A stretch of DNA of 51,439 nt from Lichenifustis flavocetrariae (GTDB lineage: Bacteria; Pseudomonadota; Alphaproteobacteria; Rhizobiales; Beijerinckiaceae): the NCBI RefSeq assembly GCF_026130545.1, contig NZ_JAMOIM010000008.1, positions 217,038 to 268,476 on the forward strand. Direction: 5' to 3'. Numbering within the stretch: position 1 is the first letter of the stretch; each line of letters begins with the position of its first letter. The position numbers and the translations under genes are program-made. This document shows positions 4,749 to 49,191 of the stretch, piece by piece. The notes beneath the pieces were generated by a model. That model worked only from the letters and a program-made list of their open reading frames with translations, ran no database searches and was not told where the DNA came from.

Positions 4749-6392
4749 TCAGTTTTGCCGACGGGCGATTGCCTCCAACAGTCGAGCAACGGCTTCCGCA
4801 CCCGGATCAGTGATTCCCTCAAGGGCGTCGGCACGAACGTAGGCGGACCGGCCTGAGCCAGCTTTGAGCATGTGCGCCGTCCTATCGGCACCGACACGTG
4901 CTTCGATTGCGGCTTGCTCGACCGAGCCTGTGCGGGCGAGGGCCTGCAAGGCCGGCTGGAGGGCATCGATCATCGTGCGATCTCCCAGCTGGGCGCCGCC
5001 GTAGACCTTGAGCTTGTCGAGGCCCGCGAGGAAGGCTTTTGGATAGTCGGGGCGATCGGCATAGGCCGTGGAAGCCGCGGCGAAGAAGGTCGCCAGCAGT
5101 ACGCCGCTGGAGCCCCCGGCGTTGCGCAGGAGCACGTCACTGATGACGCGGAGCAAGGCGGCTCCGTCGGCGAAGGGCAGCCTGTCGATCTGGCCAGCGA
5201 TGGCCCGGGCCGCTCCCGCGAAGGTCGAGCCCGTGTCACCGTCGCCCACCTTTGCGTCGAGGGCATCGATCTCTGGGGCAATCGTCTCGAACAGGGTTAC
5301 AGCGCAGGACACGACGGCACGGGCACCGGCATGATTCGAAGGCGCGGCCTGAGCCGAAGCGACGAGCGCGATTGGTTGCCGCAGCGTAGGGCGCGCGAAG
5401 CGCTTCGGCGGCAGCCATGCCGCCGGCTTGACCGGAGCCTGAAGACCGCGAAGCCGGTCTGCGTCGAGGGCGATCACGGACAACGACACGCCCCGCATGT
5501 CCAGCGCCGTCATCATGGGGGCCGGCCCCATGATGTAGTCGACTTTGTTCATCAGGCTCGTTCCGGCCAAGGCTTTGGTGACGAGCGCCATCTCGAGCGG
5601 CGGCACACCGCCGAGCGTGTTGAGCATCAGGGCATAACGCGCCTCGGAGGCTTCAAGCGCAGCCTCCAGCGTATCGGCCAACACGGCGATCAACGTGTCG
5701 GCCGACGCCATCGGCACCACGCGCGCTCCAGGCTCGCCGTGAATGCCGAGGCCGAGTTCGACCTGATCGGCGGCAAGACGTTCCTGCGGCTCGACGCCGG
5801 GCATGCTGCAGGTCGACAGCGACAGGCCGAGCGAATGGATGTGGGCGGCGGCATCCTCGGCCACGGCCTTCACCTCGGCCAGGGAGCGACCGGCCGAAGC
5901 CGCGGCGCCCGCGAGTTTGTGCACGAACAAGGTTCCAGCGATGCCGCGGGGCTGGCGGGCACCGGGCAGCGCGACGTCGTCGCCGACGATCACCAACTCC
6001 ACCTTCAGACCCATGGCCCGCGCCCGCTCGGCCGCGAGCCCGAAGTTGAGCCGATCCCCTGTGTAGTTCTTGACGATCAGCAGACAGCCGGGGTCGCCTG
6101 TCACTGCAAGGATGCCGGCCAGCACCGCATCGACGCTCGGAGACGCGAACACTTCGCCGCATACTGCGGCCGTAAGCATGCCGCCTCCGACAAAACCGGC
6201 ATGGGCCGGTTCGTGGCCGGAGCCGCCACCCGAGACGAGCGCGACCTGCGTCCTGTCCCAATCCGATCGCAGCACGACCTTGATGTCGGGAAAATCGTCG
6301 AGACGGCAGAGGTCGACTGCCCCGGATGACATCAGGAAGCCGTCGATAGCGTCGACCACGACCGTGTCACGGCTGTTCAGGAAGCTCTTCAT
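4749..6392 (-). CDS. fused dihydroxyacetone kinase (DhaK-DhaL, ATP-dependent)
   Basis: A single-chain kinase of about 547 residues. The DhaK half carries GGGSGHEP (55-62) and the substrate-linking histidine H218 in GLGIHGEPG; the DhaL half carries the Mg-ATP aspartates in DALDAKVGDGDTGS (D379, D384, D386) and GGSSGVL. It phosphorylates dihydroxyacetone or a related short ketose such as erythrulose using ATP, unlike the PTS-linked DhaKLM enzymes. It is last in the LacI-controlled minus-strand group, so its substrate is probably the ketose product of the imported sugar or polyol (inference). The frame also opens at an adjacent GTG (6395). Both domains look complete. Confidence 0.93.
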   Translation of the reverse strand: MKSFLNSRDTVVVDAIDGFLMSSGAVDLCRLDDFPDIKVVLRSDWDRTQVALVSGGGSGHEPAHAGFVGGGMLTAAVCGEVFASPSVDAVLAGILAVTGDPGCLLIVKNYTGDRLNFGLAAERARAMGLKVELVIVGDDVALPGARQPRGIAGTLFVHKLAGAAASAGRSLAEVKAVAEDAAAHIHSLGLSLSTCSMPGVEPQERLAADQVELGLGIHGEPGARVVPMASADTLIAVLADTLEAALEASEARYALMLNTLGGVPPLEMALVTKALAGTSLMNKVDYIMGPAPMMTALDMRGVSLSVIALDADRLRGLQAPVKPAAWLPPKRFARPTLRQPIALVASAQAAPSNHAGARAVVSCAVTLFETIAPEIDALDAKVGDGDTGSTFAGAARAIAGQIDRLPFADGAALLRVISDVLLRNAGGSSGVLLATFFAAASTAYADRPDYPKAFLAGLDKLKVYGGAQLGDRTMIDALQPALQALARTGSVEQAAIEARVGADRTAHMLKAGSGRSAYVRADALEGITDPGAEAVARLLEAIARRQN

Positions 6393-43900: not shown

Positions 43901-44847
43901 TCGCCTCCATGCGACGCGTCATCGCCCAGCCGTGGCTCTATTCCTTTGTGGGCGCCGCCTTAGTCTGGATCGCCGCCGTCACCTACACGGGTGGCTACGG
44001 AGCCGGCGGCATGTTGTCCGCGGGCATCGCGCTCGCCGCCTTTTCGGTGATCGTCGGAACGGCGCAGATGTTCGTCATCACGCTTGGGCCGGGCAATGTC
44101 GACCTGTCGCTGCCCGCCAACATGGGGCTTGCCAGCGCCGTTGCGATGAAGGTCATGGGCGGCTGCGATGCCCTGGTGCTGGTGGGCCTCGTGGCGGCGA
44201 TCGCCTCGGGGACGACCATCGGGATCGCCAACTACCTGCTGATCCGGCTGCTGCGCATCCCGCCGATCATCGCGACGCTCTCGGCGAGCTTTGTCGTTCA
44301 ATCCATCGGCATCAGCTACGGACGTGGCCTGCAGGTCAAGCCGCCGCCAGGCTTTGCCACGGCCACCACCGTGCAAATCGCCGGGGTGTCGGTCATGGCC
44401 GTCGTCGTGGTGGTCTTCTCCGTCGGGATCGGGCTTCTTCTGCATCGCACGACGTTCGGCCGCTCGGTCGCGGCGATCGGCCAGAACGCCCGCGCGGCCC
44501 GCCTTGCCAATATTCCGGTCGAACGCATAAGGGCACTGACCTATGCCCTGGGCGGCGCGTTAGGCGGACTTTGCGGCGCCTTGCTGGCAGGCTACTTCCA
44601 AGGTTCGTCCCTGGACATTGGGAACGAATACCTGCTGACCTCCATCGCGGTTGTCGTCATAGGCGGTACTTCCGTCGCGGGTGGCAGAGCCAATGTCACA
44701 GGCTTGTGGGGCGCTTCGCTTTTCCTCGTCATGTTGTTGACCATGCTGAACACTTACGGGGTGAGCGCCGGTGTCCGATTACTTGTGACCGGCCTTGTAA
44801 TCATCGCCGTGATCGTCACAGCAGGAGGGCCGCGCATCGCGCGGTAA
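43897..44847 (+). CDS. sugar ABC transporter permease 2b
   Basis: A 316-residue RbsC-family permease, partner of 2a. [20 protein letters not shown] replaces the usual GGIDLS motif, and [20 protein letters not shown] is the late loop. I placed the start at ATG 43897, overlapping the stop of 2a; the frame is open for 200 codons further upstream without transporter similarity. The operon ends here, directly at the catalase fragment. Confidence 0.93.
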
Positions 44848-44867
44848 GTGCCGGTTTGGCAGCTGCC

Positions 44868-45096
44868 CCGATCCGATATCACCCACATGATCATGTGCAT
44901 GCTCTCGGGGGTGAGTGAGAGGTAGTCCCAGAACGTGTCGTGAGCACTCTGGGCCTGCGGAAAGCCACGATCGGGCTCCTCCTTCACGGCATGGATGAGG
45001 TCGGGGAACTTAATCGCGTCCTGGATGAAGAACACCGGGAGGTTGTTGCCGCCGAGGTTTCAGCTGCCCTGCTTGGTGTAGAACTTGACCGCAAGG
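44868..45096 (-). pseudogene. catalase, internal fragment with a nonsense codon
   Basis: The minus-strand reading [10 protein letters not shown], stop, [60 protein letters not shown] is unmistakable haem-catalase core sequence. A TGA stands where the family has Trp (QGSWNLxGNN). Neither end of the gene is present, and the haem-proximal tyrosine region is missing. Confidence 0.9.
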
Positions 45097-45099
45097 CCC

Positions 45100-45737
45100 G
45101 CATGTCGCCCGCCATGCCGGTCTGGCGCGTGGTCGATTTCTGCGCCGGGGCCGGCGGCAAGACGCTGGCCCTCGCGGCCGACATGCGCAACCGGGGGCAC
45201 GTGATCGCCTGCGATGTCTCCGAGGGGCGGCTGAAGCGCGCCGCGGAGCGGTTCCGCCGCGCGGGGCTGCACAATATCGAGACGCGGCTCCTCGCCTCCG
45301 AGACGGACCGCTGGGTGAAGCGCCACAGGGGCCTCTACGACCGCGTGCTGGTCGATGCGCCCTGCAGCGGCACCGGCACCTGGCGGCGCAACCCGGACGC
45401 CCGCTGGCGCACCCTCGAGGCCGGGCTTGAAACGCTCCTGCCCCAGCAGGCCCGCATCCTCGCGAGCGCGGCGCGGCTCGTGAAGCCCGGCGGCCGGCTC
45501 GTCACCGCCACCTGCTCGCTGCTCCCCGACGAGAACGAGGCACAGGTCGAGGCTTTCCCGGCGGCCCATCCGGGCTTCCGGGTGGTGCCGGTGCGGGTGG
45601 TGGCGCCGGAGGTCACCGGCTCGGCCCATCCCGACCATCTGGCCCTGACGCCGGCGCGGCATGACACGGATGGGTTCTTCGCGGCGGTGATGGAGCGGGG
45701 GGCGTCTATAAAGATGTCCGAAGCCGGCAATGTCTGA
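45100..45737 (+). pseudogene. RsmB/NOP-family rRNA cytosine methyltransferase, N-terminally truncated
   Basis: About 210 residues of the SAM-dependent methyltransferase domain: [19 protein letters not shown] (SAM loop), [20 protein letters not shown] (motif IV with Cys) and [20 protein letters not shown] (motif VI with the catalytic Cys). The NusB-like/RNA-binding N-terminal half (about 200 residues) is absent; upstream DNA is the antisense of the catalase fragment, and a GTG-initiated frame simply reads through it. The catalytic domain is intact, so a residual protein is conceivable but unlikely to be a functional 16S m5C methyltransferase. Confidence 0.85.
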
Positions 45738-45843: not shown

Positions 45844-45874
45844 GTAATTCGATTGAACGAGGAAGGGCTCACAG

Positions 45875-46480
45875 ATGGACCACTTTGAGCGGCTTAAATC
45901 GCTTCTGCGGAGCCATCGGAAACGTCAGGGGGTCCTATTTGTAGGTGCTGGCTTTTCTGCGGAGGCCAAAGGATTTAACCTGCAAGGTAAAATACAAAAG
46001 CTTCCATCTGCACGTGACCTCGCAAAGCATATGGCCGACGATCTGAATGAAGACTCCTCAGATCTCATGTCTCTTTCAAGCCTGTATGAAGACAAACATG
46101 GAGAGTACGGGCTTTACTCGCTTTTAAAGACATTCTTTGTAGCGAATGAAGTGACCAATGCGCAGCGTAGTGTAGTACGCTTTCCTTGGAAACAGATATA
46201 TACAACAAACTATGACAACGTCGTTGACACGTGCCTTTCTGAAATAGGCACAAAGCACTCGATCCACACGACCTCTCAGAAAGTCTCAGATGTAGACAGC
46301 AGGGTTTTACCAATTATCCATATCAATGGATACATACAATCTGCGAGTTTCTCTAATTATAGGAAAGAGGTCAAGCTAACTGAGGTTCAATACTTCTCGG
46401 ACGACTTCTCTCGATCGGCATGGGGCGAAAGATTTCGAACGGATATAATCACGTCACCCTTTATCGTATTTGTTGGGTAG
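45875..46480 (+). CDS. SIR2-domain defence-like protein, N-terminal part ending at an amber codon
   Basis: Residues 1-201 form most of a SIR2 (NADase/deacylase-fold) domain: GVLFVGAGFSAEAKGF (GAGFS at 24-28), IYTTNYDNVVDTCL (N112 of the TTNYD motif) and IIHINGYI (likely catalytic H149). It ends ..FIVFVG then TAG at 46478-46480; the next codons in the same frame read SLYDLDIA, so the TAG replaces the Tyr expected in the SIR2 motif FVGYSLYD. GAGGAAGG precedes the start. The gene is visibly AT-richer than its neighbours, suggesting transfer. The truncated product lacks the end of the NAD pocket. Confidence 0.88.
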   Translation: MDHFERLKSLLRSHRKRQGVLFVGAGFSAEAKGFNLQGKIQKLPSARDLAKHMADDLNEDSSDLMSLSSLYEDKHGEYGLYSLLKTFFVANEVTNAQRSVVRFPWKQIYTTNYDNVVDTCLSEIGTKHSIHTTSQKVSDVDSRVLPIIHINGYIQSASFSNYRKEVKLTEVQYFSDDFSRSAWGERFRTDIITSPFIVFVG

Positions 46481-48343
46481 TCCTTGTATGACCTGGATAT
46501 AGCAAGGGTAATCAATTCGTTTGAAGGCATTACTGATAGAATTTTCTTTGTAGTTAACGAGTCTCCGTCTCGAACACTGCTTAAAAAGCTCGACGGATTT
46601 GGACGTGTACTATCAATTGGAGTTGATGGTTTTGCTGCGGCGGTTGCGGATATTCTTTTGCAGCCAGAGGTCGAGACAACTAGCGATCCTATCGCTTGGG
46701 AAAGGATAGATACGCCGACTGTCCCATCTGCCCCATTGCGTGATATCGATGTTATCAATTACCTAATGTCAGGAAGTGTAGACGAGAGCCTGTTAGCCAC
46801 AGACATACTTCGCAACCAGCATGATTTGTCTATCAACCGCGAGATCTCGAACTACATAAGTGATGCCATCATCGACAAGCGATTTCGTAATGCGCTTGTA
46901 TCTGCAAACGTCGGCAATGGAAAAACTGAAGCACTACTCGCGATAGGTTATAAGTTAGCCGCTAGGGGCCATACGGTTTATCGTGCCTCATCGCGCCCTT
47001 CCTTGTTGCTCAAAGAGGTCGCATTACTCAGGGATAAGCCTGGGCCAATCGCCCTGATGATTGATGATGTATTTTCATATATTGACGTTGTTAAAGGCAT
47101 TCGGAGTATAAGCCGAGACGACATTTGCATTATTGCTAGTTCTCGGACAGCGCAAGTCGAGCTTCAAGAAGCCTTTATCCGAGCCACGTTCAACAATGAA
47201 ATCGACATCTTTAATCTCGACAAGCTGTCCGCGGCAGAAACTCGTAATGTCATAGAGCTGTTTGATAATTATGCGCTCTGGGGACCTCGCCAACCGCAAA
47301 GCTTTGAGCAAAAGAAGATTTTCATTGATCGAGAATGCTCAGGTGAACTGCGGTTCCTCATACTTGAAGCGCTTAATTCTCCTAATATCCGATCTCGTGT
47401 TGAACAGATCATGAATGTGAACGGCAGCACAGCTGACCAAGAGCGTGTTCGTAAAGTGTTAATCCTCTCTCAACTGCTAAACCTTGCGCAAATCAGGAGC
47501 GATCTATCTCTTATCAGCGAAATTGTAGGATTCGATGCTCGCAAGGCAATTGCGGATCATGCAGGAAGTCTCAAAGATTTCGCGCTAATAAGAAATGGTC
47601 AAATTTCGATTAAATCGCCCATCTTTTCTGAGTATGTCATAAAACGGTTGCTAGACACATCGTTTGTTATAAGTACAATGATTGACGCAATGCGTCAGCT
47701 TGACGATATTCATGATAATTCATCTGAGTATCAGCTCGTGTATAGAAATTTTTCGCGTTATATTTTTGTTGAACAGGCTATCGCTGCAGATAAGAGGCTA
47801 AAATTTATGGTGCATTATTTTGAAAATATCAAAGAGCTTAGCCACTCTCGAACGCATCCACTATTTTGGCTTCAATATGCAATGTGTCGCATGTCGCTTG
47901 AACAATGGGGAGAAGCGAAGCGCTTATTTGACGTCTCGTACTCCTTCTCGAAATCGTTAGGGCACAAAGAGAACCGGCATCAGAATAATCAATGGGCCAG
48001 ATTTCTGCTTGAGAGTCGAACGAAGTCCAACGAATTCACTGATTTTGCCAAGTCATTTAACGAAGCGCATTCAATCTGTGTCAAACAAATGATAGATGAA
48101 CCCTCCAGCTATGCACCTTATCGTGTCGCGAAGGGCTATCTTCCATTCCTTGAGCGAAGGCTTCTTGAATTCAGCACTGGCGAGTTGCTCGGGATTATCA
48201 GATCTGCGTCCGAAATCATTAGGCAGTATAATACTAATGGTAAGAAAATCGGTCATGATGCAGTTGAGAGGTGTGTCGAATGCATGACAAATACTATTAA
48301 GATGGCTAAGAAAAGACTGGCTGAGCGTGGGGTTGCGATCTAA
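46481..48343 (+). CDS. SIR2-linked P-loop NTPase, C-terminal part (same frame after the amber codon)
   Basis: This 620-codon stretch continues the previous frame; together they give about 822 codons. After the SIR2 tail (SLYDLDIARVINSFEG, IFFVVNESPSRT) comes an NTPase: Walker A ANVGNGKT, Walker B IALMIDDV, and a sensor-like DICIIASSRT, then a helical winged/STAND-like segment and a C-terminal TPR-like array (HPLFWLQYAMCRMSLEQWGE, AKRLFDVSYSFSKSLG). The order SIR2-NTPase-helical repeats resembles SIR2-STAND (Avs5-like) and related antiphage proteins, in which target sensing triggers NAD depletion. A TTG at 46484 could restart translation but has no evident Shine-Dalgarno. Confidence 0.82.
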   Translation, partial: SLYDLDIARVINSFEGITDRIFFVVNESPSRTLLKKLDGFGRVLSIGVDGFAAAVADILLQPEVETTSDPIAWERIDTPTVPSAPLRDIDVINYLMSGSVDESLLATDILRNQHDLSINREISNYISDAIIDKRFRNALVSANVGNGKTEALLAIGYKLAARGHTVYRASSRPSLLLKEVALLRDKPGPIALMIDDVFSYIDVVKGIRSISRDDICIIASSRTAQVELQEAFIRATFNNEIDIFNLDKLSAAETRNVIELFDNYALWGPRQPQSFEQKKIFIDRECSGELRFLILEALNSPNIRSRVEQIMNVNGSTADQERVRKVLILSQLLNLAQIRSDLSLISEIVGFDARKAIADHAGSLKDFALIRNGQISIKSPIFSEYVIKRLLDTSFVISTMIDAMRQLDDIHDNSSEYQLVYRNFSRYIFVEQAIAADKRLKFMVHYFENIKELSHSRTHPLFWLQYAMCRMSLEQWGEAKRLFDVSYSFSKSLGHKENRHQNNQWARFLLESRTKSNEFTDFAKSFNEAHSICVKQMIDEPSSYAPYRVAKGYLPFLERRLLEFSTGELLGIIRSASEIIRQYNTNGKKIGHDAVERCVECMTNTIKMAKKRLAERGVAI

Positions 48344-48393: not shown

Positions 48394-48720
48394 TCACGAT
48401 GCATCCTGTCTGCGGTTTCGCAGACCTGCCGCGAGCGCCTTATTCATCCTGGTCTGCCACCCAGGGCCATCGGCCTTGTAGGCGGCCAGGACATCGGGCG
48501 GCACGCGCAGCGACACCGGCACGGACTTGGCTTCGGACTTCGGACGGCCCCCAAGGCGCTTGAAGGCGTTCGCGAGTTCGACCGGCAAGCCCTCGCCGTT
48601 CGGCCGCAGCTCCGCGATCTCGGCATCGGTCAACTCGGGCGTATCGGACACCTCGTCCCAATCCGCCTGCGAATAGTCGGGGTTCGGCACGTAGCCCGGC
48701 GCGTGCTTAGAGGTTGTCAT
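48394..48720 (-). CDS. brnA: BrnA-type antitoxin
   Basis: A 108-residue antitoxin. The N-terminus is acidic and disordered-looking (YSQADWDEVSDTPELTDAEI); the C-terminal half is the BrnA ribbon-helix-helix, VPVSLRVPPDVLAAYKADGP, GWQTRMNKALAAGL. It follows brnT with a 14-bp overlap, as in known brnTA operons, binds and neutralises the toxin and should repress the operon. It converges on the SIR2-NTPase gene with about 50 bp between stops. Confidence 0.9.
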   Translation of the reverse strand: MTTSKHAPGYVPNPDYSQADWDEVSDTPELTDAEIAELRPNGEGLPVELANAFKRLGGRPKSEAKSVPVSLRVPPDVLAAYKADGPGWQTRMNKALAAGLRNRRQDAS

Positions 48721-48982
48721 AGGCGGCCCTTTCCTTGTCGCTGGCGTCGCGCACGCTCACCACGTCGCACCCCTCGGAGCCGAGCGGCGAGATGATGACC
48801 GTGACGACGGCGTCGTTGAACCACGTTCCCACCAGCAGCCGGCGCTCGCGGCCGGTCTGGCTCGGCTTGGTCCTGCGGCTCAGGTAGCGGTCGAAGCTGA
48901 ACGCGGTCTCGAAGTCGGCCGGGTCATAGCCATGCTTGGCAATGTTGGCCGACCGCTTCGGCTGAGGCGCGAAGGACTTCAC
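48707..48982 (-). CDS. brnT: BrnT-type ribonuclease toxin
   Basis: A 91-residue RelE-fold toxin. SANIAKHGYDPADFETAFSF matches the BrnT start (RKHGVSFEEA..), GRERRLLVGTWFNDAVVTVI the central strands and SVRDASDKERAAYDN the C-terminal signature (SARxAxxxERxxY). It would cleave mRNA when free of BrnA. First gene of the pair; start ATG 48982. Confidence 0.9.
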   Translation of the reverse strand: MKSFAPQPKRSANIAKHGYDPADFETAFSFDRYLSRRTKPSQTGRERRLLVGTWFNDAVVTVIISPLGSEGCDVVSVRDASDKERAAYDNL

Positions 48983-49041: not shown

Positions 49042-49139
49042 CCGTCATCGCGAGCGAAGCGCGGCGATCCAAGCTGCGTTGCGGATGTTCGGACCGCTGC
49101 ATGGATTGCCACAGCGGCTTCGCCGCCTCGCAATGACGG
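49042..49139. repeat. dispersed palindromic repeat (REP-like)
   Basis: The ends are inverted copies: CCGTCATCGCGAGCGAAGCG (from 49042) and CGCCTCGCAATGACGG (to 49139), with further pairing CGATCCAA/TGGATTGC inside. This is the extragenic palindrome common in Hyphomicrobiales genomes. It lies between brnT and ygiQ and may act as a transcript 3' structure for ygiQ. Confidence 0.75.
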
Positions 49140-49191
49140 CGGACGAGCCGCAGCTTGGTCCTGGAGCGGCGAAAGCAGTCTCCCGTCCGGC

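Follow-up and report, generated by a model that had tools for sequence, protein, structure and literature searches.

A single amber codon interrupts an Avs5-like immune sensor gene of Lichenifustis flavocetrariae, probably by recent inactivation

An Avs5-like immune sensor gene of Lichenifustis flavocetrariae contains one in-frame amber codon, and we judge it probable that this acquired gene was recently inactivated by a single nonsense mutation. The gene lies within the window, i.e., the whole stretch of 51,439 nucleotides that was analyzed (contig NZ_JAMOIM010000008.1, positions 217,038 to 268,476), where an 822-codon frame on the plus strand (45875-48343) is interrupted solely by TAG at 46478-46480 (codon 202) and then stays open until TAA at 48341-48343. 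An earlier note on this DNA had claimed one frame broken only by this TAG, and the stop counts confirmed it: the five alternative frames each hold 28-80 stops across 45875-48343, so that one interruption per 822 codons is not attributable to chance. The TAG is known from one draft assembly of 180 contigs. The gene parts and neighboring features are as follows.

44829-45035, minus strand: catalase fragment (PF00199, profile positions 125-187 of 383)
45093-45737, plus strand: RsmB-type methyltransferase domain (PF01189, positions 11-198 of 199; only 46% identical to the genome's longer copy on contig C94, whose frame is open for 462 codons)
45860-45866, plus strand: SD-like AGGAAGG upstream of ATG 45875 (anti-SD duplex energy of -8.5 kcal/mol)
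45875-46480, plus strand: 5' ORF of 201 aa with the bulk of a SIR2-like NADase domain (GAGFS, TTNYD, NG; PF13289 at residues 107-201, E = 6e-9)
46478-46480, plus strand: amber TAG within the frame (codon 202), where the family G-[YF]-S motif has its aromatic residue
46481-48343, plus strand: 3' remainder in the same frame, 620 codons and TAA, with the SIR2 end, an nSTAND NTPase (PF25199, E = 1.3e-9) and a C-terminal region with a conserved W-x-Q
48394-48720, minus strand: BrnA antitoxin (Pfam match; BrnA/BrnT pair, PF14384 and PF04365)
48707-48982, minus strand: BrnT toxin (Pfam match to the same pair)

The duplex energy at the ATG compares with a background median of -1.6 and a 5% level of -6.1 kcal/mol (329 positions). 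GC contents at the three codon positions were similar on either side of the amber codon (0.51/0.37/0.47 in the 5' part and 0.52/0.37/0.43 in the 3' part). In the read-through protein, the motifs named in the earlier note were found where it had placed them, with GAGFS at 24, TTNYD at 110, the Walker A core GNGKT at 347, and a Walker B-like LMIDD at 394-398; the amber codon is flanked by G201 and S203. The sirtuin HG is replaced by NG (N151-G152), and the residue-151 column, which corresponds to the sirtuin catalytic His, is occupied by Asn in 65 of 100 rows and by His in 31; three rows have Tyr and one has a gap.

When translated with X at the stop, the protein matched PF13289 (SIR2_2) at residues 107-222 with E = 1.2e-10, exceeding the Pfam cut-off, and PF25199 (nSTAND_NTPase5) at residues 319-430 with 38.1 bits (cut-off, 34). 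Pfam also recognized each half separately, PF13289 in the 5' part and PF25199 in the 3' part. The C-terminal part, which the earlier note had called TPR-like, had no match among the Pfam families, repeat families included; W665 and Q667 within it are conserved in 94 and 95, respectively, of 100 relatives' rows. PDB chain 9jap_A ("SIR2-like domain-containing protein," 869 aa), part of what we take to be an Avs5 filament structure, aligned with residues 3-719 (E = 8e-64), and the same chain was matched by the profile of alignment A1 (the window protein plus 11 of 15 other relatives' rows, leaving out L011, L022, L026, and L039) with E = 4e-140. The chain is distant in sequence and, unlike the window gene product, intact. 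The earlier description of a SIR2-STAND defense-like gene with one nonsense lesion at the GYS aromatic position is supported.

Judged by its sequence, the architecture corresponds to that of Avs5 (AVAST type 5), for which the accessible part of the literature describes SIR2 (PF13289), a STAND NTPase, and a C-terminal region in one gene of ∼820 aa (PMC12931631). From the same portion of that source, the shared features extend to GAGXS, TTNXD, the NG variant, Walker A, and the C-terminal W-x-Q, with W665/Q667 resembling Trp675/Gln677 of PaAvs5-1. NG in place of HG is described there as common in Avs5, at about one Asn to one His, and protection is reported to be abolished by changes in the SIR2 motifs or Walker A and by C-terminal deletions (PMC12931631). 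The window gene differs from Avs5 in being interrupted and in its NTPase, which is of the nSTAND5 type whereas the published Avs5, in the sections of PMC12931631 at hand, has nSTAND3. The earlier note had found no exact match to a family that it could name. The architecture can be named, and a full-length solved relative exists, though neither of the curated Avs5 models, NCBIfam NF041814 and PADLOC Avs5, matched the window protein or the aligned part of 9jap_A. Across the relatives these models matched patchily: NF041814 recognized 7/12 sequences in A1 and 9/49 in alignment A2 (the window protein plus 48 of 83 uninterrupted named rows), and PADLOC Avs5 recognized 4/12 and 6/49. Because nSTAND_NTPase5 prevails in A2 (36/49, with nSTAND3 in 15/49) and the curated models miss the window protein, we use the label "Avs5-like" rather than plain Avs5. 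The PADLOC ThsA models matched the SIR2 part (residues 8-214, E = 4e-12), and Dsr2 matched residues 18-118; NCBIfam Dsr2 recognized 3/12 members of A1 and 17/49 of A2; the likeness to ThsA, DSR1, and DSR2 is confined to the SIR2 NADase domain. A Thoeris reading was rejected, as the SIR2 part alone was matched and a Pfam scan of ten neighboring ORFs detected no TIR domain of a ThsB partner; the right end of the window is also the end of the contig.

The state of the gene in its relatives was surveyed in genome_contigs, where 215 stretches with relatives were obtained and the best 80 kept. A single ORF of at least 740 aa was present in 76 of these best 80; the exceptions were L108 (near a contig end), L139 (a stop at query residue 705), L152 (a match that is discontinuous between residues 154 and 165), and L164 (residues 447-720 unmatched). 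IMG/VR yielded 13 distant loci, 8 long and 5 partial, and all 8 long ones were single ORFs by the same length criterion. Since the survey rows are ORFs and hence stop-free by construction, the direct test was the search for in-frame stops within the tblastn alignments, which turned up just two affected loci (query residues 243 and 705). Thus, neither the alignment rows nor the tblastn loci included a relative with a stop at codon 202. Homologs with two conserved separate genes at this boundary, which the earlier note had set against its reading, were not seen among the genome_contigs and IMG/VR loci examined. The column of the amber codon contained Y in 73 rows, F in 21, T in 2, and L, A, S, and H in 1 each (100 rows, i.e., 106 less four duplicates and the two fragments of an interrupted gene), and this 94/100 share of Y or F agrees with the earlier placement of the stop at the aromatic position of the SIR2 GYS motif. 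The closest relative found, L108 (Bradyrhizobiaceae MAG contig CANKBJ010000195.1), was recovered by scanning genome_contigs with A1; a scan with the 3' half gave no close relative there. L108 is 55% identical over the SIR2 part and, in contrast to the window gene, has a sense codon at the amber column. Beyond residue ∼226, close to where its contig stops, it no longer resembles the family, owing to truncation or misassembly. A 101-row tree paired the window protein with L108 alone (support 100), the L108 row filling 28% of the columns.

Comparison with L108 also informed the age of the lesion. Over 226 codons, the identities at codon positions 1, 2, and 3 were 0.66, 0.74, and 0.37, which indicates protein-level constraint in the past, for most of the history of the gene. 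The 821 sense codons contain no further stop. As 3.9% of all substitutions that the gene could undergo would yield a stop, this intactness limits neutral divergence since the lesion to less than ∼0.03 per site (95%, by a simple Poisson argument). The amber lesion is therefore young, or not real.

The surroundings are consistent with acquisition. Windows inside the gene had a GC content of 0.40-0.46 versus 0.59-0.73 on both flanks, and the DNA match with four of the five congeneric genomes stops at 44813-44848, the end of a transporter gene. The RsmB-type domain seems to lack its N-terminal half, a probable truncation. On the 3' side, the gene is followed by BrnA/BrnT and then a radical-SAM gene. 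With its low-GC islet beside gene fragments, the locus seems to be a patch of acquired DNA strewn with remnants. DNA at 44867-45122, in the region of the catalase fragment, recurs elsewhere in the genome and the genus. A short sequence at 49042-49140 recurs roughly a dozen times in the same genome among the matches listed (query 6043-6149) and is perhaps a repeat family, and the contig end (51347-51439) is repeated on other contigs of the assembly, at 99% on C135 and 93% on C107.

The window gene is the sole PF13289 match and the sole copy in its genome, and none of the five congeneric genomes gave a match. At E ≤ 0.001 and with its own genome counted, matches occurred in 43/397 genomes sampled from the family, 23/397 from the order, 4/385 from the class, and 18/398 from the phylum, in samples that overlap and with many matches spanning the SIR2 part only. 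Among plasmid records, 24 of 72,556 matched, 14 of them with ≥80% of the query covered. A phage origin was considered and rejected, with 0 matches in 50,697 phage records and no close relative from the IMG/VR scan with the window protein; the 13 distant IMG/VR loci indicate that such genes do travel on viral contigs.

Broken copies of the family were encountered elsewhere. In a genome of the same class, an insertion element splits an Avs5-like gene (L208:4186-6720); the element is bordered by 9-base repeats and has inverted ends of 24 bases, and the break falls two to five codons before the motif position of the window amber codon. A SIR2-family gene on a Providencia plasmid (L210:1187-6650) is interrupted by ISEcp1 with blaOXA-181. 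On plasmids of Escherichia coli and Zymomonas, the annotation divides the family copy into two and three ORFs, respectively, and genome G622 carries a copy as two ORFs of 563 and 235 aa. Loss of this gene type is not exceptional. A breakage hot spot at the GYS motif was rejected; only L208 is interrupted nearby and the other copies break at other places, so we treat the nearness of the L208 break as coincidence.

The earlier note had left three explanations side by side: a recent inactivating mutation, a sequencing error, and suppression or readthrough. Inactivation fits best, given the single-ORF relatives, the Y/F column, the ordinary use of TAG as a stop, the past constraint, the low-GC islet, and the other broken copies. 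An error of sequencing or assembly, by which the gene would be intact in the strain and one consensus base wrong, comes second and is rather unlikely. It accords with one lesion in a gene whose 821 sense codons show no further decay, and with a single draft assembly in 180 contigs at a contamination of 3.04; the lack of any other lesion is, indeed, also expected from a consensus error or from a gene still in use. Against it, a clean nonsense codon by error is improbable when 3.9% of substitutions create a stop, and broken family copies exist elsewhere. We also considered that the two ORFs are made separately and act as two proteins, with a restart at TTG 46484. This codon, one past the amber codon, could open a 619-aa ORF. 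However, the break is inside the SIR2 domain (PF13289 at 107-222) and not between domains, the TTG has a poor SD match (-3.7 versus -8.5 kcal/mol at ATG 45875), and the sole split nearby among the examined relatives, none of which has two conserved genes at this boundary, is the insertion element in L208. A split system is accordingly highly improbable.

Suppression or regulated readthrough, in which the amber codon would be decoded often enough to give full-length protein, depends on how the host reads TAG. Rare readthrough occurs in any cell, and the frame beyond the stop is intact. The host assembly (7.52 Mb, 180 contigs, completeness of 99.72, contamination of 3.04) argues otherwise. In a sample of 382 ORFs, drawn from ∼728 kb of the 7.5-Mb assembly, 63 terminate with TAG, and the open run past TAG, with a median of 28 codons, is no longer than that past TAA (34.5); the median past TGA is 33, and the 90% points are 263, 263, and 142 codons for TAG, TAA, and TGA. 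RF1 is present. The suppressor tRNA that the earlier note had suggested looking for did not materialize, as ARAGORN found 0 CUA anticodons among 45 tRNAs in the window and 40 stretches spanning all 44 tRNA-model places, a list from which Ile-GAU and Ala-UGC are missing and for which the assembly is thus incomplete. TAG is a working, ordinary stop in this host, and natural amber recoding of the suppressor or pyrrolysine type was rejected on the same three grounds: TAG is not rare as a stop, no CUA tRNA was among the 45, and RF1 is present. As no relative examined has a stop at codon 202 either, we regard readthrough at a useful level as very unlikely. A more speculative variant, to which we attach hardly any credence, makes the amber codon a throttle: the Avs5-like NADase would be silent except for rare full-length readthrough molecules, and readthrough could rise when infection disturbs RF1 or translation, making the stop part of the trigger. 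The intact frame after the stop fits this idea, and nothing else speaks for it.

Under recent inactivation, the preferred explanation, the consequences can be outlined from what is described for relatives in the accessible parts of the reports on Avs5 (PMC12931631) and Avs5 filaments (PMC12700824). In an intact protein, the C-terminal part would sense a phage protein, the NTPase would switch, and the protein would assemble, whereupon SIR2 would hydrolyze NAD+ and infection would be stopped. Here, translation is predicted to end after residue 201, within SIR2 and before the G-[YF]-S...D segment, so that presumably no complete NADase would be made, and the 3' half with the NTPase and sensor would be translated poorly or not at all. 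The Avs5-like system is, on the evidence of the DNA, most probably off in this strain, and phage-triggered NAD+ hydrolysis and protection would be expected to be absent because of the stop. The mutation may have been favored because it removed the cost of misfiring; neutral loss would explain it equally well.

The gene holds a warning for automatic counts of defense systems: curated Avs5 models miss it, and PADLOC reports a ThsA-like SIR2 with no Thoeris partner found alongside. What we describe is ordinary biology in a little-sampled Avs5-like lineage. This lineage is deep and has nSTAND5 instead of nSTAND3, and the one close relative found (L108) seems itself truncated. With its one lesion, the gene also illustrates clearly how a defense gene that may be costly turns over.
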